Shown here: positions 4,069 to 33,297 of the stretch, one piece after another
How positions within the stretch are numbered: position 1 is the first letter of the stretch
How the letters are laid out: the number at the start of each line of letters is the position of its first letter
Assembly: GCA_905234705.1 (NCBI GenBank)
Contig: CAJOIB010000011.1
Span: forward strand, 1-36,562
Source of the DNA: an uncultured Selenomonadaceae bacterium
Lineage (GTDB): Bacteria > Bacillota > Negativicutes > Selenomonadales > Selenomonadaceae
DNA: 36,562 nucleotides
Direction of reading: 5' to 3'
Made by a program: the position numbers and the translations under genes
Notes under the pieces: model-generated
What the model was told of the DNA's origin: nothing
The model's database searches: none
Seen by the model: only the letters and a program-made list of their open reading frames with translations

Positions 4069-4110
4069 ACTGTCACCACTTTTCGGTAATAAATTTTTCA
4101 GCGTTTGAGA

Positions 4111-4216
4111 GGCGCGCACGGACGCGCGCCCCCGCGGCGCGCTAGTCACGTGATGTGACTATCCGCGCCGCTGTTTTTCTTTGCTAGGCGTTTCTTTTTG
4201 CGCCAAAAAGAAATGC
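4111..4216. repeat. Three-hairpin intergenic repeat, copy 1
   Basis: Hairpin 1: GGCGCGC (4111-4117), ACGGAC loop, GCGCGCC (4124-4130). Hairpin 2: GCGGCGCG (4134-4141), an inner AGTCAC/GTGACT stem around GTGAT, then CGCGCCGC (4164-4171), followed by a T-rich run. Hairpin 3: TTTCTTTTTG (4191-4200), CGC loop, CAAAAAGAAA (4204-4213). A second copy in the same orientation lies at 29098-29199. Here it fills the space between the methyltransferase-like gene and nnrD, both on the minus strand. Confidence 0.85.
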
Positions 4217-8080: not shown

Positions 8081-9236
8081 TTAAATCACCCCCTCGCCCA
8101 AAATTTTCGCGACAGATTGAACATCTTTATCGCCGCGCCCGCTTAAGCAAACTACAACATTTTCATTCGGCGCGGTATTCGGCATGAGTTTCTCAAGATA
8201 AGCAAGTGCGTGGGAACTTTCCAGTGCAGGAATAATTCCTTCAGTTTTCGCCAAAAGTTGAAATGCGTCAAGCGCCTCATTGTCAGTCGCGGCAACGTAA
8301 TTCACAACGCCCGCGTCTTTGAAATATGAATGTTCCGGACCAACGCCAGGATAATCTAAACCGGCTGAAACTGAATAAGCCTCGACAACTTGACCCTGCG
8401 GCGTCTGCAAAACCAGGTCTGCCTGCGCCCGACAAAGTTTTAGCATTATCGCCGGTATCTTCGCCGCGCCCGCCAGCCTCAACGCCAAATTTTTTCACAG
8501 CCGCATCATCTTTGAAGTCGTAAAAAATACCCATAGCATTTGAGCCGCCGCCTACGCACGCCACAATATAATCTGGCAGTTTGCCAAATTCATTAAGCGA
8601 TTGTTCGCGCAGTTCGACGCCAATGCATTTTTGAAAATCACGAACAATTTCCGGATAAGGCGCAGGACCAACCACAGAGCCGATAATATAATAAGTATCA
8701 GTTATATTCGTCGACCAATAGCGAATCGCCTCGCTGGTGGCGTCTTTAAGCGTGCCAGTGCCGCAAGTAACCGGAACAACTTCAGCGCCCAAAAGTTTCA
8801 TGCGGAAAACGTTAAGCTTCTGCCGCTCAATATCTTCAACGCCCATGAAAATTTTACATTCCATACCGAAAAGCGCCGCCACAGTTGCAGTAGCTACGCC
8901 ATGTTGCCCCGCGCCAGTTTCAGCTATAACTCTGCGCTTGCCCATTCGCTTTGCCAATAATGCTTGACCAAGTGCGTTGTTAATTTTGTGCGCGCCGGTA
9001 TGAAGTAAATCTTCACGCTTGAGATAAATTTTAGCCCTGCCATAATGTTTAGTTAGATTTTCAGCGAAATATAAAAGCGTCGGACGCCCAGCGTATTTCT
9101 GCAGATAAGTTTTAAATTCAGCCAAAAAATTTGCGTCGTTCTTGTACTGCGCGAATGCCTGTTCCAATTCCATAAGCGCGGGCATAACCGTTTCCGGTAC
9201 AAATTGCCCGCCGTATTTACCAAATCGTTTGTTCAA
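8081..9236 (-). pseudogene. trpB: Tryptophan synthase beta chain, disrupted by an out-of-frame deletion
   Basis: PLP enzyme that condenses indole with serine. It is split into two overlapping frames: an N-terminal part (8283-9236) and a C-terminal part (8081-8488). The first carries [16 protein letters not shown], the PLP lysine in [28 protein letters not shown] and [12 protein letters not shown]. The second resumes at [19 protein letters not shown] and runs through [14 protein letters not shown] to the stop. At the junction (about 8409-8417) frame one ends in AGRPG, and the normal GVLHG-x-x-x-Y segment before VLQ is missing: about eight codons plus a frame change. The total of 1,156 bases is not a multiple of three. 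The start is TTG with AGGAG 8 bases upstream. It could be a real null allele or an assembly error. Confidence 0.88.
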
Positions 9237-13357: not shown

Positions 13358-13385
13358 ATTATATCACAAAGTTTGTCGATAACAA
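13358..13385 (-). promoter_or_regulatory. Promoter of the tatA transcript, extended -10
   Basis: Minus strand: TTGTTA (13380-13385), 16-base spacer, TATAAT (13358-13363) preceded by TG-A, an extended -10. It lies about 40 bases before the tatA ATG. The -35 box overlaps the outer edge of the decayed duplicate described at 13381-13491. Confidence 0.75.
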
Positions 13386-13491
13386 TAGAAATTTTTGGAC
13401 AAATTAAAAACTCCCCGCCGCGTTGACGAGGAGCGGAAATTTATTTTCCGGAAAGATTTTATTCGATGTGCCGCCTGTAGTTTCTGCATAG
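13381..13491 (-). repeat. Decayed duplicate of the 3' end and terminator of the 237-residue gene
   Basis: Fifty-one bases (13398-13448) are identical to 13524-13574, and similarity continues to 13491 (matching 13620) with scattered single-base losses. The unit contains the last codons of the adjacent gene plus its terminator. The coding part here is shifted out of frame by the deletions, so it is a relic rather than a gene. Confidence 0.85.
13401..13433 (-). terminator. Rho-independent terminator, duplicated copy
   Basis: Minus strand CTCCTCG pairs with CGGGGAG (7 bp with one G-U) around a 9-base loop and is followed by TTTTTAATTTG. It is the duplicate of the terminator at 13527-13559 and lies just upstream of the tatA promoter, so it would act as a second stop for transcription coming from the flagellar genes. 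Confidence 0.7.
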
Positions 13492-13503
13492 TCACAAACT
13501 TTA

Positions 13504-13620
13504 ACAATAACAAAAAACTTTTTGACAAATTAAAAACTCCCCGCCGCGTTGACGAGGAGCGGAAATTTATTTTCTGGAAAAAATTTTATTCGATAGTGCC
13601 GCTTGTAAGTTTCTGCATAG
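13504..13620 (-). repeat. Parent copy of the duplicated 3' end and terminator
   Basis: This copy covers the final 11 codons of the 237-residue gene (13586-13620) and its terminator. It matches 13381-13491 with an offset of 126-129 bases. Confidence 0.85.
13527..13559 (-). terminator. Rho-independent terminator after the 237-residue gene
   Basis: Minus strand CTCCTCG/CGGGGAG stem, 9-base loop, then TTTTTAATTTG, about 26 bases beyond the stop codon. Its duplicate lies 126 bases downstream. Confidence 0.8.
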
Positions 13621-16778: not shown

Positions 16779-17594
16779 ATGTTAAAATTGGAAAGCAAGG
16801 GCGAATCTTTTATTCACGAAAGCGCGGTAGTTTCGCCGAGCGCCAGAATTGGGCGCAATGTTACAATCGGTCCGTACAGCGTAATTGGCGATGACGTTGA
16901 AATTGGCGACGGCTCAGAGATTGGACCTAACGCGGTTATCGCGCAGTACACCAGCATTGGCAAAGACTGTAAAATTTTTCAATTCGCGTCGGTTGGTGAA
17001 GTGCCGCAGGATTTAAAATTCAAGGGCGAGCGCAGTTATACGTTTATTGGCGACAGGACTGTGATTCGCGAAGGCGCAACGATTCACCGCGCAACCGGCG
17101 AAGATAATGAGACGCGCGTTGGTACGGATTGTTTATTAATGGCGTATATTCACGTGGCGCATAATTGCGTTTTGGGCAACCACGTTATCATGTCGAATCT
17201 GGCAAGCTGTGCCGGTCACGCTACCGTTGAAGACAGGGTTGTAATTGGCGGTATGGCGGGCGTTCATCAGTTCGTGAAAATCGGCAGAAACGCAATGGTC
17301 GGCGGTATGAGTAAACTGGTTCAAGACGTCGTGCCATATACGATTGTTGACGGACATCCGGCTAAAGTTGTTGGTTTGAATAATGTTGGAATTTCTCGCG
17401 CAGGGATACCGCTTGAATCGCGTAGGCTTATTAAAAAGGCGTATAAAATTTTGTACCGTTCGGGCTTGAGTTTAGCTGAAGCTATCGCGGTGATTGAGCA
17501 GGAAGTTGATTCGTGCGAGGAAGTTGAACATTTTCTTAGATTTTTGAGGAATGCAGAGCGCGGGATTTGCCGAGAGCGCCGCGATTCTGAGTAG
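16779..17594 (+). CDS. lpxA: Acyl-[ACP]-UDP-N-acetylglucosamine O-acyltransferase
   Basis: First enzyme of lipid A synthesis, adding a 3-hydroxyacyl chain to UDP-GlcNAc. The 271 residues form a left-handed beta helix of hexapeptide repeats: IHESAVVSPSARIG, NVTIGPYSVIGDDVEIG, DGSEIGPNAVIAQYTSIG. The catalytic histidine lies in YIHVAHNCVLGNHVIM, followed by GHATVEDRVVIGGMAGVHQF, and an alpha-helical C-terminus (GISRAGIPLESRRLIKKAY). The first three codons after ATG 16779 leave no alternative in frame; CAGGAGC lies about ten bases upstream. Its stop codon is the first base triplet of a 7-nt periodic spacer. Confidence 0.97.
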   Translation: MLKLESKGESFIHESAVVSPSARIGRNVTIGPYSVIGDDVEIGDGSEIGPNAVIAQYTSIGKDCKIFQFASVGEVPQDLKFKGERSYTFIGDRTVIREGATIHRATGEDNETRVGTDCLLMAYIHVAHNCVLGNHVIMSNLASCAGHATVEDRVVIGGMAGVHQFVKIGRNAMVGGMSKLVQDVVPYTIVDGHPAKVVGLNNVGISRAGIPLESRRLIKKAYKILYRSGLSLAEAIAVIEQEVDSCEEVEHFLRFLRNAERGICRERRDSE

Positions 17595-17641
17595 GGTAGG
17601 GAAAAGGGTCTAGATTCTAATCACTAATCCCTAACCCCTAG
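17592..17641. repeat. 7-nt periodic intergenic repeat, locus 1 (lpxA-lpxI)
   Basis: The spacer reads in heptads: left G-rich arm TAGGGTA, GGGAAAA, GGGTCTA; right C-rich arm TTCTAAT, CACTAAT, CCCTAAC, CCCTAGA. The arms are roughly complementary. The repeat begins inside the lpxA stop and ends about 5 bases before the lpxI ribosome site. Confidence 0.75.
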
Positions 17642-24461: not shown

Positions 24462-24525
24462 TTTCAAAACCCCCTTCCATTCAATTACTATATCGTTATA
24501 TTACGAAAAAAAATAAACCCCTTTT

Positions 24526-24601
24526 CAGGGGTCAGGGACAAGGGGCAAGGGGTCAGGGGTTTGAATCACTATTCCCTTTTCACTTTACACTGTTCACTTA
24601 C
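24526..24601. repeat. 7-nt periodic intergenic repeat, locus 2 (after mdh)
   Basis: Ten heptads and one 6-mer: CAGGGGT, CAGGGAC, AAGGGGC, AAGGGGT, CAGGGGT, then TTGAAT, then CACTATT, CCCTTTT, CACTTTA, CACTGTT, CACTTAC. The left arm is G-rich and the right arm C-rich. The right arm runs into the mdh stop codon (24598-24600). Confidence 0.85.
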
Positions 24602-25548
24602 TTAAGAGCGTCGCCGAGTTTGGAATTGGTATTGCGCGCCGCCTGAACGCTTTCGTCAAATTTAGCCTTTTCTTCGTCGGAGAATTGAATCTCAACGATT
24701 TTTTCACAGCCCTCTTTGCCGAGAATGACAGGAACGCCAATGCACAAATCCTTTTCGCCATATTCGCCATCAAGATAAACACAGCACGGAATAAGCTTTT
24801 TCGCGTCAAGAGCAATAGCTTCAACAAGAGCCGCCGCCGCTGCGCCAGGTGCATACCAAGCCGATGTTCCCAAAAGTTTCGTACAGGTCGCGCCGCCAAC
24901 TTTCGTAGCCTCAACAGCTTTGTCAAGCGCCTCTTTGCTCAAAAGTTGAGTTACCGGAATGCCGCGGTAAGTCGCAATGCTCGCAAGCGGTACCATTGTT
25001 TTATCGCTGTGTCCGCCAACTACCATGCCGTCAACGTCAGTCGGCGTCGCAGGATAACCAGCCTCATTGAGCGCTTCAGCAAGATAATAGCGGAAACGAC
25101 TGCTGTCCAACATGCCGCCTTGACCAATAACGCGATTTCTCGGAAGTTTGGAATCTTTCAGCGTCAAATAAGTCATTGCGTCCATCGGATTTGAAATGAT
25201 AATCAAAATTGCGTCCGGCGAAAATTCAAGAATCTGGTCGACAACGCTTTTAACGATTTTTGCGTTAGTGCCAATAAGATCTTCGCGGCTCATGCCAGGT
25301 TTGCGCGGAATGCCCGACGTAATAACGACAACTTGAGAGCCCGCCGTCGCCGCATAATTATTCGTTACGCCCTTAACCGTCGTGTCGAAATTGAGCATAT
25401 GCGAGGTTTGCATAATGTCCATAGCTTTGCCTTCGGACAAACCTTCTTTAATATCAATCAAAACAACTTCGCTCGCAAAGCCTTTCGTCGCCAAAACATT
25501 AGCAACGGTCGCGCCAACATTACCAGCACCAACTACTGTAACTTTCAT
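24598..25548 (-). CDS. mdh: Malate dehydrogenase
   Basis: NAD-dependent malate/oxaloacetate interconversion; 316 residues of the LDH-like MDH type. Visible: NAD-binding VVGAGNVGATVANVLA, the acidic VVLIDIKEG, substrate-binding loop SGIPRKPGMSREDL (two arginines in the malate-specific arrangement rather than the lactate glutamine), IISNPMDAMTYL, and the catalytic histidine in DVDGMVVGGHSDKTMVPL. GGAGG lies 9 bases before the ATG. It follows a rubredoxin gene by 21 bases. With the fumarase and SdhCAB genes ~4 kb away it completes the reductive route from oxaloacetate to succinate. Confidence 0.95.
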   Translation of the reverse strand: MKVTVVGAGNVGATVANVLATKGFASEVVLIDIKEGLSEGKAMDIMQTSHMLNFDTTVKGVTNNYAATAGSQVVVITSGIPRKPGMSREDLIGTNAKIVKSVVDQILEFSPDAILIIISNPMDAMTYLTLKDSKLPRNRVIGQGGMLDSSRFRYYLAEALNEAGYPATPTDVDGMVVGGHSDKTMVPLASIATYRGIPVTQLLSKEALDKAVEATKVGGATCTKLLGTSAWYAPGAAAAALVEAIALDAKKLIPCCVYLDGEYGEKDLCIGVPVILGKEGCEKIVEIQFSDEEKAKFDESVQAARNTNSKLGDALK

Positions 25549-29097: not shown

Positions 29098-29199
29098 GGC
29101 GCTCACGGACGAGCGCCCCCGCGGCGCGCTAGTCACGTGATGTGACTATCCGCGCCGCCCTTTTCTTTGCCAGCGTTTCTTTTCGTGAAAAGAAATGCT
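29098..29199. repeat. Three-hairpin intergenic repeat, copy 2
   Basis: Hairpin 1: GGCGCTC (29098-29104), ACGGAC loop, GAGCGCC (29111-29117). Hairpin 2: GCGGCGCG (29121-29128), inner AGTCAC/GTGACT, CGCGCCGC (29151-29158), then a CCCTTTTCTTT run. Hairpin 3: TTTCTTTT/AAAAGAAA (29176-29195). It lies between the converging 1,074-residue gene and sdhB, where it could end transcription from the left. Copy 1 is at 4111-4216. Confidence 0.85.
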
Positions 29200-29208
29200 G
29201 AACTGTTT

Positions 29209-29955: not shown

Positions 29956-29981
29956 GGAAAAAGCTCCTTTCAGTCGCTTTT

Positions 29982-30057
29982 TAGGGATTAGTGTAAAGGG
30001 ATTAGGGATTAGTGTTTAAAATCTAGCCCCTAGCCCCTTTTCCCTATACCCTATTCT
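29982..30057. repeat. 7-nt periodic intergenic repeat, locus 3 (sdhA-sdhB)
   Basis: Heptads TAGGGAT, TAGTGTA, AAGGGAT, TAGGGAT, TAGTGTT; 6-base TAAAAT centre; then CTAGCCC, CTAGCCC, CTTTTCC, CTATACC, CTATTCT. The last heptad contains the stop codon of the intact sdhA frame (CTA at 30051-30053, minus-strand TAG). Confidence 0.85.
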
Positions 30058-30217
30058 TTCTTGGCAACAGCGTAATTGCGGGCGCGCGGCTTAATCAAGG
30101 AATGGTCAAAATCGCGGTACGTAACAATCGGCTCTTCAGTTTTCGGGTCGTAATTGACGATTGTAATTTTCATAAAGCGTTCGTCGTCGCGCCCCATAAA
30201 TACCGTTTCTGCTTGCC
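30051..30217 (-). pseudogene. sdhA: Severed C-terminal end of SdhA (out of frame)
   Basis: In the frame not used by the upstream part, the minus strand reads QAETVFMGRDDERFMKI, then TYRDFDHSLIKPRARNYAVA and a stop at 30051. This is the expected C-terminal domain of a Bacillus-type SdhA, whose C-terminus has a similar run of basic residues. It joins the main frame if one base is restored next to the GG at 30216-30217. With that base the protein would be 597 residues, the normal length. Confidence 0.8.
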
Positions 30218-31843
30218 ATTTTCAAGAACAATTTTAGCATGAGCGCCGCGGCTCTCGTCACGCATTCTCGCGCCTTTGGTTATCGCCATCGCGTAAAGAA
30301 TCATATTGCGAAGTTGACGCACAAACATAGCCTCTTGATTGGCAACCGGCGAATGGTCGGTAATTCCAATGTCATTCCAACGCTTGAGCAATTTTTTCAA
30401 TTCAACCAGGCAAGCGTCCAAGCCGTTATTGTCGCGCTCAATCGCAACGTATTTGTACATTAAATCGCCCATTTCGTGGTGGAGCTTATGCGCATTTTCC
30501 GAGCCGTTCATTGTCAAAATTTTATCGTATTCATTTTGGACTTCGCGGCGCGCGGCTTCTAAATCAGCGTCAGAAAGTTCACTGCCCTTGTTGCCGGTTT
30601 TCGCCCACTTCATAGCTTCCGGACCGGAAACAGTTCCCGAATAAGCCGCACTTAAAAGCGAATTAGCGCCCAAGCGATTTGCGCCGTGATATTGATAATC
30701 GCATTCGCCGCTCGCCATTAAGCCAGGAATATTCGTATTGTGCACGCGGTCAACCCAAATGCCGCCCATCGAATAATGCACGCTTGGGAAAATTTCCATT
30801 GGAACTTTGCGCGGGTCTTGTCCAACAAATTCGCTGTACATTTCCAGAATGCCGCCGAGTTTACGCTCAAGATAGCCGCTGTCAATGTGCGACAAATCCA
30901 GATAAACGCGATTTTCGCCGTTAATGCCTAAGCCCATATGCACACAAACTTTGTAAATGGCGCGGCTGGCAACGTCACGCGGCACTAAATTTCCGTACGC
31001 AGGATACATTTCCTCAAGGAAATACCACGGCTTACCGTCTTTATAAACCCAAACGCGCCCGCCTTCACCGCGGCAAGCCTCGCTCATTAATCTATTTTTA
31101 TCTGAGCCTGGAATCGCCGTCGGGTGAATCTGAATAAATTCCGGATTGGCAATTTCCGCGCCCTGCTGATAAACCGCACTAACCGCTGAGCCGTTGCAAA
31201 TAGTTGACGCAGTACAGCGCCCAAAAACTTGACCAGGTCCGCCAGTTGCCAAAATTACCGTGTCAGCCCTAAACGCGCGAATTTCCATTGTATTCATATT
31301 CTGCGCGACTAAGCCGCGACAAATGCCTTCGCGATTTTTGATAATCTTAATAAATTCCCAGAATTCAAATTTATGGACAGAGCCTTTGACTTCCCAGCGT
31401 CTAACTTGTTCGTCGAGCGCGTATAAAATTTGTTGCCCCGTCGTCGAACCCGCAAAGCAAGTGCGTTTATGTTTTTGCCCGCCGAAATTTCTCAAATCTA
31501 AAACGCCTTCAGAAGTGCGCGTAAATGGTACGCCCATTCTGTCGAACATTTTAATAAGTTTCGGAGCCGCCTCTACCATACCCTTAACAGCAATTTGATC
31601 CGCTAAAAAGTCGCCGCCGTAAACCGTATCGTCGAAATGCTCATAAATGCTGTCGTGTTCGCCCTTGGTATCCATACAGGCGTTAATGCCGCCCTGCGCG
31701 CAAAGCGAATGTGAACGCTTAACGGGGCAGTATGAAAACAAGTCAACTTCGCCGCCCAATTCGCAAACTTTGATTGTGGCGAGCAAGCCCGAAATACCGC
31801 CGCCGACTATTGCAATTTTCTTTTTGCTCATATCTTTAGCCAT
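30170..31843 (-). CDS. sdhA: Succinate dehydrogenase / fumarate reductase flavoprotein subunit, frameshifted near the end
   Basis: FAD subunit interconverting succinate and fumarate. FAD binding is seen in KIAIVGGGISGLLATIKV; the flavin-linked histidine is in RSHSLCAQGGINAC; the substrate/active-site regions are FIQIHPTAIPGSDKN, RGEGGRVWV and PSVHYSMGGIWVD; HGANRLGANSLL is the FAD-capping segment. This open frame stops at 557 residues after the point where a one-base loss near 30216-30217 shifts it (…KIVLENG, then KQKRYLWGATTNAL, which is not SdhA-like). The correct ending continues in the other frame to 30051. GGAGG lies seven bases before the ATG. In a fermenting anaerobe it would act as fumarate reductase. 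Frameshift is either sequencing error or a recent mutation. Confidence 0.92.
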   Translation of the reverse strand: MAKDMSKKKIAIVGGGISGLLATIKVCELGGEVDLFSYCPVKRSHSLCAQGGINACMDTKGEHDSIYEHFDDTVYGGDFLADQIAVKGMVEAAPKLIKMFDRMGVPFTRTSEGVLDLRNFGGQKHKRTCFAGSTTGQQILYALDEQVRRWEVKGSVHKFEFWEFIKIIKNREGICRGLVAQNMNTMEIRAFRADTVILATGGPGQVFGRCTASTICNGSAVSAVYQQGAEIANPEFIQIHPTAIPGSDKNRLMSEACRGEGGRVWVYKDGKPWYFLEEMYPAYGNLVPRDVASRAIYKVCVHMGLGINGENRVYLDLSHIDSGYLERKLGGILEMYSEFVGQDPRKVPMEIFPSVHYSMGGIWVDRVHNTNIPGLMASGECDYQYHGANRLGANSLLSAAYSGTVSGPEAMKWAKTGNKGSELSDADLEAARREVQNEYDKILTMNGSENAHKLHHEMGDLMYKYVAIERDNNGLDACLVELKKLLKRWNDIGITDHSPVANQEAMFVRQLRNMILYAMAITKGARMRDESRGAHAKIVLENGKQKRYLWGATTNAL

Positions 31844-31860
31844 AAAAAAACCTCCGGTTT

Positions 31861-31923
31861 TTTAGTGATTATAGTGATTAGAACTATTCACTACTCACTA
31901 CTCACTACTCACTATCCACTAAC
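31861..31923. repeat. 7-nt periodic intergenic repeat, locus 4 (sdhC-sdhA)
   Basis: The right arm is CACTACT three times in succession (31889-31909), then CACTATC and CACTAAC. The left arm has TTAGTGATTATAGTGATTAG with looser spacing. It occupies nearly all of the spacer between the sdhC stop and the sdhA ribosome site. Confidence 0.85.
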
Positions 31924-31929
31924 TTTACC

Positions 31930-32553
31930 TCAATAAATGTAATAACTAGACATAAAGGCAACCGTGGCAAGGCAAAGCGCCGCGCAAAGTCCCATGCTAA
32001 TCAAGCTGATAACATTTTGGGAACGCGGACCTTTGGTAATGCCCCAAGTCATGCAGAATGTTGTAATGCCGTTGCAGAAATGGAAAATCGCCGCCCACAT
32101 TCCAAGGACGTACAAAATGGCGACAATCGGATTTGAGAACATATTTTGCAAAAGTTCAAATGAAATCGGGTTACCGAGAACGCCCTTAAGATAAATGCGC
32201 AGATAGCCAACGTGCCAAATCAAGAATACTACCAAGAACCAAGCCGTCCAACGTTGCAGTGTGAAATTCCAGTTGCGGAGATAGCCAAATCTCAGCGGAT
32301 TATTATTCGCCTGCAGTGCAATATAAATACCGTAAAGTCCATGGAATAAAAACGGTATGGCGTACATTCCAATTTCAATACTGTAAAAAATTGGCTTAGG
32401 AATTTCCTCAACCATGCCCATAACGCCATTGAAGAAAACCGGTCCTGCCAATGCCATTGAGTTTGTGCCGATGTGCTCCAGTATGAAAAAGCCCAGAATC
32501 AACAAACCGCACAGCGAATGCAGACGCCGCAAATAAAAAGTTGTGTGAAACAT
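31930..32553 (-). CDS. sdhC: Succinate dehydrogenase / fumarate reductase cytochrome b subunit (diheme type)
   Basis: Membrane anchor that exchanges electrons with menaquinone. The 207 residues form five hydrophobic helices. The histidines expected to bind two hemes in the Bacillus-type cytochrome b558 are at 12/27/71/114/158 (RLHSLCG, LEHIGT, LFHGLYG, IWHVGYL, IFHFCNG), close to the spacing in B. subtilis. AAGGAGG lies five bases before the ATG. There is one membrane subunit and no separate SdhD, as in the type B enzymes. It comes after fumarase beta and before sdhA. Confidence 0.94.
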   Translation of the reverse strand: MFHTTFYLRRLHSLCGLLILGFFILEHIGTNSMALAGPVFFNGVMGMVEEIPKPIFYSIEIGMYAIPFLFHGLYGIYIALQANNNPLRFGYLRNWNFTLQRWTAWFLVVFLIWHVGYLRIYLKGVLGNPISFELLQNMFSNPIVAILYVLGMWAAIFHFCNGITTFCMTWGITKGPRSQNVISLISMGLCAALCLATVAFMSSYYIY

Positions 32554-32570
32554 TTTTGCCTCCTTGTTTG

Positions 32571-32654
32571 TTTAGTGGTCAGTTATCGGTGGTCAGTGGT
32601 CGGGGTAAAAAATGCCAATCACTGACCACTTTTCACTGATAACTGGTCACTAGA
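32571..32654. repeat. 7-nt periodic intergenic repeat, locus 5 (fumarase beta-sdhC)
   Basis: Heptads TTTAGTG, GTCAGTT, ATCGGTG, GTCAGTG, GTCGGGG; a 14-base centre; then CACTGAC, CACTTTT, CACTGAT, AACTGGT, CACTAGA. The last heptad holds the stop codon of fumarase beta (CTA at 32650-32652). Confidence 0.85.
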
Positions 32655-33222
32655 TTTGATTGATATCGAAGTTGCGGAAAGGTTTTTGTCCAATTTCGTA
32701 AAAATTATTACCTTCGCAGTCAATGACAACGATAGCCGGAAAATCTACAACTTCCAGCGCCGCCACTGCCTCCGGACCAAGTTCAGGATACGCAAGCACG
32801 GTATAACTTTTAACAGATTTAGCAATTAACGCCGCCGCGCCGCCTACCGCTGCAAAATAAGTCGCGCCATTTTTCTTCATAGCCTCGACAACTTCAGGCG
32901 CACGTGAGCCTTTGCCGACCATACCTTTGATACCTTGCTCAAGCATTGTTGGAGTATAAGCGTCCATTCTGCCGGAAGTGGTTGGTCCGCACGAACCAAT
33001 CGGATCTCCAGGTTTCGCCGGTGTAGGTCCAAGATAATAAACAATCTGATTATTCCAGTCAACCGGCAATTTTTCACCGCGTGCAAGCGCCTCTGTCATA
33101 GCTTTATGCGCCGCGTCTCTTGCGCTGATAATCGTGCCGGTAATTAAAACGCTGTCGCCGGCTTTGAGTTTGCGCGACATTTCTTCGGTAAACGGCGTTG
33201 TAATTCTGATACTTTCAGCCAT
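32650..33222 (-). CDS. Class I (Fe-S) fumarate hydratase, beta subunit
   Basis: C-terminal half of a two-part, oxygen-sensitive fumarase, hydrating fumarate to malate or the reverse. The 190 residues show LKAGDSVLITGTIISARDAAHK, YYLGPTPAKPGDPIGSCGP, GRMDAYTPTMLEQGI, GKGSRAPEVVEAMKK, GGAAALIAKSVKS and the terminal CEGNNFYEIGQKPF. The same fold occurs in tartrate dehydratase; the neighbourhood with sdhCAB argues for fumarase. AAGGAAG precedes the ATG. Separated from the alpha gene by a 7-nt periodic spacer. Confidence 0.93.
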   Translation of the reverse strand: MAESIRITTPFTEEMSRKLKAGDSVLITGTIISARDAAHKAMTEALARGEKLPVDWNNQIVYYLGPTPAKPGDPIGSCGPTTSGRMDAYTPTMLEQGIKGMVGKGSRAPEVVEAMKKNGATYFAAVGGAAALIAKSVKSYTVLAYPELGPEAVAALEVVDFPAIVVIDCEGNNFYEIGQKPFRNFDINQI

Positions 33223-33249
33223 TGAAAAAACTTCCTTTCAGTCAGTTTT

Positions 33250-33297
33250 TTAGGGATTAGTGGAAAGGGGCTAGGGATTAGTGGAAAAATCATTCAC
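33250..33297. repeat. 7-nt periodic intergenic repeat, locus 6 (fumarase alpha-beta)
   Basis: Heptads TTAGGGA, TTAGTGG, AAAGGGG, CTAGGGA, TTAGTGG, then AAAAAT and a short right arm (CATTCAC, AAAACAC). The right arm is the shortest of the six loci and overlaps the alpha subunit stop codon (33294-33296). Confidence 0.75.

Follow-up and report, generated by a model that had tools for sequence, protein, structure and literature searches.

We tentatively read the spacers of the fumarase-sdh operon in the DNA analysed here (36,562 nucleotides, hereafter the window) as members of a class of rewritable heptad arrays found throughout the genome, and the heptad elements as mosaics produced by template switching among such arrays and tolerated at gene ends; we put the probability of this reading at roughly 0.4. 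Polarity, register and site of the elements hold while their content changes, and the two arms of one element were shown not to be detectably matched to each other. Fast-changing, unmatched arms look more like the trace of a DNA-rewriting process than like a switch of one operon. The features are listed in Table 1.

Table 1. Heptad elements and Shine-Dalgarno (SD) hairpin modules in the window.
Feature	Position	Strand	Details
Two-armed heptad element	17588..17640		overlaps stop codon of gene ending at 17594
Two-armed heptad element	24525..24601		3' end of minus-strand gene 24598-25548
SD hairpin module before sdhB	29958..29982	-	stem AAAAAGC..GCTTTTT
sdhA-sdhB two-armed heptad element	29981..30056		arm 29981-30018, centre 30019-30022, arm 30023-30056
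SD hairpin module before sdhA	31844..31863	-	CCGGAGG form
sdhC-sdhA two-armed heptad element	31862..31923
fumB-sdhC two-armed heptad element	32569..32652		GTCAGTG-type vocabulary
SD hairpin module before fumB	33225..33251	-
fumA-fumB one-armed heptad array	33250..33284		second arm missing here, present in G006

The initial annotation described all four spacers between fumA, fumB, sdhC, sdhA and sdhB as two-armed and built from 7-nt units. This is true of three of them (fumB-sdhC, sdhC-sdhA and sdhA-sdhB), whose self-identity at lag 7 was 0.52, 0.51 and 0.50, in each case above all 2000 mononucleotide shuffles of the spacer (maxima 0.43, 0.47 and 0.41). The fumA-fumB spacer carries one arm only, and its value of 0.33 lies inside the shuffle range (maximum 0.47). 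As had been described, the order in the three two-armed spacers runs from a G-type arm through a short centre to a C-type arm, and the heptads differ between loci under a constant period and two-arm plan. The spacers were also said to start at the upstream stop codon; judged by eye, the TAG codons of sdhA and fumB do lie inside heptads, and the stops of sdhC and fumA do not. The feature is not a property of this operon: two further elements occur in the window, one of them at the end of what is presumably a malate dehydrogenase-like gene (24598-25548), and others elsewhere in the genome.

Segments periodic at lag 7 numbered 15 over 322 kb of G000, the genome of the window, compared to none at lags 4, 5, 8, 10 and 11, one at lag 13, and none at lag 7 in local shuffles. 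In a simple window scan, lags divisible by 3 and lags 12-15 equalled or outnumbered lag 7 in windows; these were dropped from the segment comparison because of codon periodicity and because 14 is twice 7. A first pattern, ASTAGTGASTAGTG with two mismatches, had 14 matches in G000, fewer than the 33 of its reversed control. Scanning with an arm profile recovered two-armed elements in three sister genomes, G000 (12 in 322 kb), G004 (11 in 220 kb) and G006 (8 in 259 kb), counts that are not independent because these genomes have loci in common; their reversed sequences gave none. The profile was trained on the same elements whose bounds it sets, fits other vocabularies poorly and favours TAG. Across 800 kb of the three genomes, 31 pairs were NTAG-first vs. 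1 C-first, with 0 in reversed sequence; an earlier profile had given 13 G-first and 4 C-first pairs in G000, and 1 in reversed sequence. The G-type arm leads on both strands, since the reverse complement of a G-first, C-last element is again G-first, C-last. Arms are about 35 nt long and the centre about 3 nt in each two-armed element. Genes were called with our own simple caller, and the sequences come mostly from metagenome assemblies, with one locus set centred on sdhA.

A search for intergenic 7-nt periods with arms elsewhere in the genome and in relatives had been suggested at the outset, and they were found both genome-wide and in the genus; many gene ends of these uncultured rumen bacteria bear such elements. 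Among distinct spacers in the genus, a lag-7 segment is present in 5/20 for fumA-fumB, 10/21 for fumB-sdhC, 3/20 for sdhC-sdhA and 6/21 for sdhA-sdhB; the corresponding counts for other Selenomonadales are 0/28, 2/32, 0/31 and 0/28. The threshold of this survey (lag-7 score 7.5 or more) passes over some spacers with a heptad-like look to the eye, such as fumB-sdhC in loci L020 and L023. In many congeners the spacers at these junctions are short or lack a period, and YTAGKGRNTAGKGR had no match in five of them (G007, G008, G031, G040 and G042). Since reversal only rotates the repeat, the reversed-pattern control ATTACGCATTACGC is not an independent one, and the counts of that search serve presence or absence only. 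A 21-nt TAGKGR pattern searched across the class occurred in 12/200 genomes and 7/81 genera. Six of these class-wide loci were inspected: the match coincided with a lag-7 array at five, a G-first pair was present at none, and one (L277) had two arrays in C-first order. Another family of the class holds a nearly pure (CCACTAA)n array (L279).

Most elements lie near a stop codon between co-directional genes. The stop is often TAG (19/27 cases at elements vs. 61/716 elsewhere), a count that is partly ascertainment because the arm profile favours TAG. Co-directional placement is in itself no preference (27/31 elements vs. 603/744 junctions overall). Divergent pairs, which make up 71/744 junctions, hold 0/29 intergenic elements (P = 0.055). 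Arms read inward contain stops in 2.52 of 3 frames, compared to 2.08 outward and 1.90 for shuffled arms. A function as stops in all frames was considered and rejected: in a co-directional pair, reading makes no use of the downstream arm, and the inward excess is therefore treated as a consequence.

Each arm is a mosaic of N-T-A-G-N-N-N heptads from a vocabulary that is typical of the genome and common to unrelated loci. In the set examined the AG is nearly invariant (core A 96%, core G 98%; consensus TTAG(G/T)G(A/G)). In G015, TTAGNNNTTAGNNNTTAG had 527 matches vs. 19 for the reversed pattern, TTAG staying constant while the triplets change; TTAGNNN arrays in G037 numbered 13 vs. 10 in the control, so the excess is not found everywhere. 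Arms of different heptad families were joined, by eye, at 10/20 loci of G002, and families mix with register kept, as in TTAGGGA-TTAGCTT and ATTACGC-ATTCCTA. Block copying exceeded heptad shuffles in G002 (98 shared 17-mers vs. a shuffle maximum of 96). Sharing of heptad order was ordinary in G000 (17 shared 17-mers; shuffle mean 12.9, maximum 33), the 47 of G038 lay within the shuffle range (maximum 52), and shared 14-mers were inside that range in all three genomes.

Nine orthologous comparisons of sister genomes, with flanks at 78-95% identity in 17/18 cases and 55% in one, found neither arm recognisable in five, one arm kept in three and the element conserved in one. Where one arm was kept, the other had been replaced, shortened or altered; only sdhA-sdhB in G004 showed a whole arm cleanly replaced next to an unaltered one, the sdhA-side arm being kept and the sdhB-side arm different. 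Both arms of the element at 24525..24601 are different in G004. In G006 the sdhC-sdhA element is absent (spacer of 15 nt), the fumB-sdhC site has a different sequence, and the fumA-fumB spacer has both arms. In these comparisons with relatives, of the kind the initial annotation had proposed, sites persist, content turns over and some sites are empty. One element lies inside the murI coding region. The murI loop is also converted in three other congeners, and in 5/20 loci overall (ACTAACC-type heptads in four, GTCCCTT heptads in one), the target sequence being replaced, not split.

If template switching is responsible, the 3' end left by a break or a stalled fork, commonly TAG-like, would anneal to the TTAG/CTAA anchor of an existing array, copy a few heptads, switch template in 7-nt register and finally be sealed at the AT-rich centre; the same course of events on either side would give head-to-head arms. 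Arrays would survive where harm is small. At gene ends heptad arms could supply inward-reading stop codons, the SD module might restore initiation of the next gene, and the long mRNA hairpin would be a by-product. We counted for copying the lag-7 excess, polarity, arm independence, mixed families in register, the constant TTAG with changing triplets, the mosaic make-up of arms, block copying in G002, turnover, murI conversion and TAG stops. Counted against it were cis duplication, ordinary order sharing in G000, complementary one-family arms in some elements outside G000, the four C-first pairs of the earlier profile, the single locus with a clean arm replacement, and the fact that no copying was observed directly. 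A stop-codon primer would not explain why the arm towards the downstream gene has its polarity, and AG conservation could alternatively mean a binding site. Ku-type end joining is not available, since no Ku gene was found in 31/31 genomes.

A binding site is the core of a rather unlikely alternative, in which the elements are BIME-like arrays for a DNA- or RNA-binding protein, each heptad being a site, convergent polarity being required and the vocabulary drifting with the protein. The conserved core, the fixed polarity and the lack of intergenic elements in divergent pairs at P = 0.055 would fit, but the vocabulary varies within one genome and even within one arm, orthologous sites are often empty, and five congeners have no YTAGKGRNTAGKGR match.

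Exact adjacent duplicates make up 9%, 12% and 17% of neighbouring heptads in G000, G038 and G002, above the 2.7%, 7.5% and 13.1% expected from vocabulary, and neighbours resemble each other more than they do heptads of other arms (0.69 vs. 0.61, 0.77 vs. 0.65 and 0.83 vs. 0.73). Duplication in cis contributes, given this likeness and exact duplicates at three times expectation in G000. In-place slipped-strand expansion with later point mutation also gains from the nearly pure array L279 and from passages of PMC4679880, which cite Mrazek 2007 for heptads outnumbering other 5-11 nt repeats in most genomes rich in repeats. As an account of the elements it is nonetheless improbable: unrelated loci share vocabulary, families switch in register, both arms have the same polarity, and 5/9 orthologous sites are unrecognisable. 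We hold equally improbable a trans-acting process that adds TTAG-N3 units, drawn from a vocabulary particular to the genome, to both 3' break ends before joining these. If true, dozens of gene ends would carry interstitial arrays laid out like fused telomeres, 5'-(TTAGnnn)n-(nnnCTAA)m-3', which the process would rewrite within sister-species divergence.

The initial annotation saw in the arms long imperfect mRNA hairpins that tune translation or stability of the operon subunits, a role we consider quite improbable. Folding, which it had called for, favours the idea in part: the three two-armed operon spacers beat dinucleotide shuffles (z = -2.9 for sdhA-sdhB, -3.3 for sdhC-sdhA and -5.7 for fumB-sdhC), but fumA-fumB folds like its own shuffles (z = -0.13), as do the two other window elements (z = -1.0 and 0.08). 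Arm complementarity was 0.412 within elements vs. 0.414 between elements in G000 (p = 0.51), 0.370 vs. 0.455 in G038 (p = 0.99) and 0.345 vs. 0.417 in G002 (p = 0.87). The G038 and G002 samples are a biased choice of 40 loci taken from matches to two patterns, with arms long enough for the test at 13/20 and 12/20 loci, respectively. The 31 elements of the three sister genomes gave 0.416 vs. 0.394 (p = 0.14). Simulated templated arms with 15-45% mutation were detected every time (0/2000 permutations as high), whereas real arms were not. Own partners were slightly, not significantly, better than random ones in similarity (p = 0.21 in G004, 0.11 in G006) and in duplex energy in all three sister genomes (p = 0.27, 0.21 and 0.07).

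Complementary arms are found, though not as a general feature, and in some congeners they are clearly so. A strict detector that demanded complementary arms found 1 such element in the G000 sample, 11 outside it (G013, 1; G016, 3; named congeners, 5; other Selenomonadales, 2) and 0 in G006, G003, G010, G017, Bacilli and outgroup stretches. The lack of a significant excess of own-arm complementarity, the mixed-family arms and the turnover of content all argue against long hairpins as the function, and tuning of the operon is further undercut by the many congeners whose spacers there are short or non-periodic and by the element inside murI.

What covaries in hairpin fashion is a short SD stem beside the heptads, absent from the initial annotation. 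This module often follows a heptad element and is common to many copies. Column pair 6/20 of the stem reads UA, AU, CG or GC, and 100% of stem cells are paired vs. 76.7% for the best slid control (5 distinct rows, in an alignment that left out forms with other loop length). The search patterns were written from examples already seen. GGA stands in the loop, and CsrA was considered as a candidate; it is neither supported nor excluded, because it is present in 27/31 genomes, including all five without YTAGKGR matches.

We take the layout of an element to be that of a head-to-head telomere fusion, and a telomerase-like reverse transcriptase, or another polymerase with a heptad template, extending the two 3' ends that flank a break would agree with arm independence, fixed polarity and degenerate vocabulary. 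Its involvement is very unlikely: an RVT_1 match is absent from element-bearing G004 (93% complete) and G006 (99%), with 1 in G000, and several vocabularies per genome would need several templates. A MITE or REP-type element moved by a transposase, which would suit the dispersed copies, empty sites and common SD module, is hardly credible given termini that vary between copies, replacement rather than splitting of the murI target, and no Y1 (REP-associated) transposase PF01797 match in G000 (85% complete), G004 or G006 (any Y1 match in 5/31 genomes, 4 over the cut-off). Inspection by eye of murI, purN-purH and sdhC-sdhA showed no target-site duplication. RVT_1, Y1 transposase and Ku were all searched as candidate machinery, and none was supported.

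Because sister species of this genus display vocabularies, polarity, altered arms and empty sites together, countable predictions differ between slippage, template switching, trans templates and protein binding. Repeats have here rewritten operon junctions and even a loop of an enzyme, and the arrays are accompanied by stop codons and a Shine-Dalgarno hairpin. Many bacterial genomes have heptads in excess; the explanations given in passages of PMC4679880 and PMC4692102, such as polymerase slippage, are still hypotheses.

Convergent heptad pairs are already published for Xanthomonas: passages of Rehm et al. (2015; PMC4692102) describe 186 and 183 GGGAATC heptad arrays in X. campestris and X. 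axonopodis, mostly intergenic and nearer the upstream gene, with 70 and 75 cases of two convergent arrays on opposite strands, length and sequence varying between the two species. These share with our elements 7-nt units with a conserved G core, a dispersed, mainly intergenic distribution and convergent pairs. They have one vocabulary, with GGGAATC as the unit and G-quadruplexes as the focus, whereas ours have several, with TTAG(G/T)G(A/G) as consensus; the passages contain no arm-independence test, family mosaics, single-arm turnover or SD module.

The TAACTGA repeats of Beggiatoaceae and cyanobacteria, in passages of MacGregor (2015; PMC4679880), are likewise dispersed intergenic heptads with one-direction stop codons and a species-specific distribution. 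They form one unit in direct orientation (169 direct sets and one indirect in one genome), mostly just upstream of start codons, whereas the present arms are head-to-head; TAACTGA is not among the commonest heptads listed here. Geobacter metallireducens elements, as passages of PMC2700814 describe them, are also tandem and dispersed, with one family both within and between genes, and are set apart by a fixed consensus (GGACCGG; MTYCTGA) and a mostly fixed copy number of four or five heptads. In the Nostoc tRNA-Leu intron, according to passages of PMC4476775, the P6b stem carries one of two 7-nt motifs, TDNGATT or NNTGAGT, which replace each other with the architecture kept, as in the present elements; that is a single group I intron site where the motifs ensure stem pairing, whereas the arms described here need not pair.

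The source genome (G000; 2.05 Mb in 128 contigs) belongs to a group that we call Quinella-like, because its SdhA relatives at 90-97% identity are rumen Selenomonadaceae, including Quinella sp. 2Q5 at 93% (locus L018). A 7-nt period had initially been described at all four junctions of its fumarase-sdhCAB operon (fumA, fumB, sdhC, sdhA, and sdhB, all on the minus strand in the window); it exceeds 2000 shuffles in three of the four spacers, but the claim does not hold for fumA-fumB, where the period is not above the shuffles. The initial annotation also proposed a search for similar spacers elsewhere, and such spacers do occur: two-armed elements, i.e., two inward-pointing runs of 7-nt repeats (heptads) with a G-type arm first and a C-type arm second, were identified by heptad profile in G000 (12 in 322 kb) and the sister genomes G004 (11 in 220 kb) and G006 (8 in 259 kb); reversed sequence gave none, and a single pair had the opposite order. 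An earlier profile gave 13 elements in G000; its reversed-sequence control returned 1, and 4 pairs had the opposite order. Counting orthologous loci more than once, 27 of the 31 elements lie between co-directional genes, two between convergent genes, two inside murI, and none between divergent genes.

In 322 kb of G000, 15 segments have self-identity at a 7-nt shift (lag-7) over threshold, vs. none at lags 4, 5, 8, 10, and 11, one at lag 13 (multiples of 3 were excluded, being common in coding sequence), and no lag-7 segments in locally shuffled sequence. Around sdhA, their density per 100 kb is 11.8 in named congeners (L015-L027), 1.2 in other Selenomonadales, and 0.6 in more distant loci, mostly Bacilli; G006 has 2.5 (80 kb scanned). 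Whole-genome matches to YTAGKGRNTAGKGR on both strands, with overlapping matches in one array each counted, outnumber those to the reversed pattern in G000 (93 vs. 15), G004 (160 vs. 20), G006 (58 vs. 4), and a further genome, G038 (245 vs. 42); the search returned zero in the congeners G007, G008, G031, G040, and G042. G002, G015, and G037 are further array-rich genomes. In genome G003, 18 matches to the reversed control GATTNNNGATTNNNGATT stand against 0 for TTAGNNN, possibly reflecting another heptad vocabulary.

Median arm lengths are 35 and 36 nt around a median centre of 3 nt. Read inward, the heptads have the consensus TTAG(G/T)G(A/G), with the A and G of the core at 96% and 98%. Other congeners change the triplet behind TTAG (CTT, GTG, GGA, GTT, TAG, and others), with register held by TTAG, and further vocabularies include TAATGCG, GTAGTGA, TTAGGAA, and AAGCTTN; in two Selenomonadaceae assemblies, one of them Schwartzia (L049, L051), the fumB-sdhC spacer has two GAGAGTG-vocabulary arms. 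TAG is the stop codon in 19 of 27 cases at elements vs. 61 of 716 elsewhere, a difference that is partly ascertainment. In another family of the class (genome G116), the array at locus L279 has a single arm and is almost purely (CCACTAA)7, and a 21-nt pattern has 81 matches in that genome (control 0). Two heptad arrays at locus L277 (genome G112) are separated by about 70 nt and run C-first, the reverse of the rule in the window's genus.

Short stems bearing the Shine-Dalgarno sequence were found as 15 distinct modules among the loci examined, 13 of them directly after C-type heptads, one preceded by an apparent heptad remnant (L133), and one without heptads (L015). The 7-bp stem is kept via compensatory changes in five distinct forms of equal loop length, one pair occurring as UA, AU, CG, and GC.

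Sites of the elements are stable, and their content is not. Nine orthologous comparisons were made between G000 and either G004 or G006; 17 of 18 flanks have 78-95% identity, and the remaining one (55%) lies beside other inserted DNA. Five of the nine elements have a likeness (0.39-0.61) no greater than that of unrelated elements, one is conserved (0.90), and in three a single arm is retained (0.85-0.94) while its partner differs (0.42-0.63): one arm was replaced in G004 at sdhA-sdhB, shortened in G000 at murI, and altered and shortened in G006 in the 24.5-kb element. At purN-purH, G000 and G006 have different vocabularies, G038 and genome G002 have others again, and G004 has nothing; the sdhC-sdhA spacer is 89 nt in the window and 15 nt in G006. 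Where some genomes have heptad elements, others have 0.3-1.4 kb of other DNA at sdhA-sdhB (L096 of G006, L023, L025, L113) or, after purN, DNA that looks coding by eye (L188, L189, L191, L195).

The murI gene is present in 29 of 31 genomes. Of 20 loci compared, 15 have ordinary coding sequence at one loop, including L178 with its weak lag-7 score. This loop is replaced by two arms of in-frame heptads in G000 and G004, by one ACTAACC-type in-frame arm at L175 and L177, and by one GTCCCTT-type in-frame arm at L183; these sequences suggest at least two conversions.

Further features with coordinates are tabulated below. The two frameshifts are either real deletions or assembly errors.

Coordinates of individual features in the window and at locus L126, with their state in the sister genome G006
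Location	Coordinates	Feature	G006
Window	4110-4213	GC-rich intergenic repeat with long palindrome (second repeat family)	86% match to copy near sdhB
Window	29100-29200	Same family
Window	8393-8424	trpB-like gene frameshifted	Interval 26 nt longer
Window	13376-13618	Intergenic repeat units of ~110-130 nt	Arrangement unlike window
Window	30201-30209	sdhA frameshifted	Interval 19 nt longer
L126	17022-17091	Two convergent genes (presumably flavin reductase-like and precorrin reductase-like), both ending ..SE* within one element's two arms

Template switching among heptad arrays, anchored on TTAG, would write the arms by copying other arrays in register. We favor this reading tentatively (probability roughly 0.4). 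Mosaics, register, and content replacement at fixed sites fit it; the model alone does not explain the polarity of both arms. Shared 17-mers lie above all 200 heptad shuffles in G002; their number is high in G038 without leaving the shuffle range, and G000 has an ordinary number. For 14-mers, sharing falls inside the shuffle range in all three genomes. Under slippage in place every locus would amplify its own heptad, which the vocabulary common to unrelated loci argues against; still, exact neighboring duplicates exceed expectation in G000 (9 vs. 2.7%), G038 (12 vs. 7.5%), and G002 (17 vs. 13.1%); duplication in cis therefore plays a part, and G000 shows this best. Both the polarity of the arms and their independence would follow from a telomerase-like writer extending them, but searches of G004 and G006 turned up no reverse transcriptase. 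Ku was not found in any of 31 genomes, nor a REP-type transposase in G000, G004, or G006.

If the arms served as hairpins or were copied from one another, an element's own arms should match better than those of different elements. Own vs. foreign matches were 0.412 vs. 0.414 in G000 (12 elements, p = 0.51), 0.370 vs. 0.455 in G038 (13 of 20 loci, p = 0.99), 0.345 vs. 0.417 in G002 (12 of 20 loci, p = 0.87), and 0.416 vs. 0.394 for G000, G004, and G006 pooled (31 elements, p = 0.14; singly 0.52, 0.21, and 0.11), in a test that detected simulated templated arms even with 45% mutation. Own arms are thus not detectably better matched, which speaks against the long mRNA hairpins proposed initially. 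By eye, 10 of 20 G002 loci combine arms of unlike vocabulary, e.g., AGTAGTG with ATTACGC (L223, L226, L230) and TTAGCTT with ACTACTC (L216, L219, L220).

The open-access titles and abstracts covered yielded no report of such repeats for Quinella or Negativicutes, and a text search of the Quinella genome paper returned no passage on them (PMC9585023). Other papers report heptads in Geobacter (PMC2700814), TAACTGA arrays in Beggiatoaceae and others (PMC4679880), and exchangeable heptad motifs in Nostoc intron stems (PMC4476775). In Xanthomonas, GGGAATC arrays number 186 and 183 altogether, near the upstream gene, with convergent pairs in 70 and 75 cases (PMC4692102).
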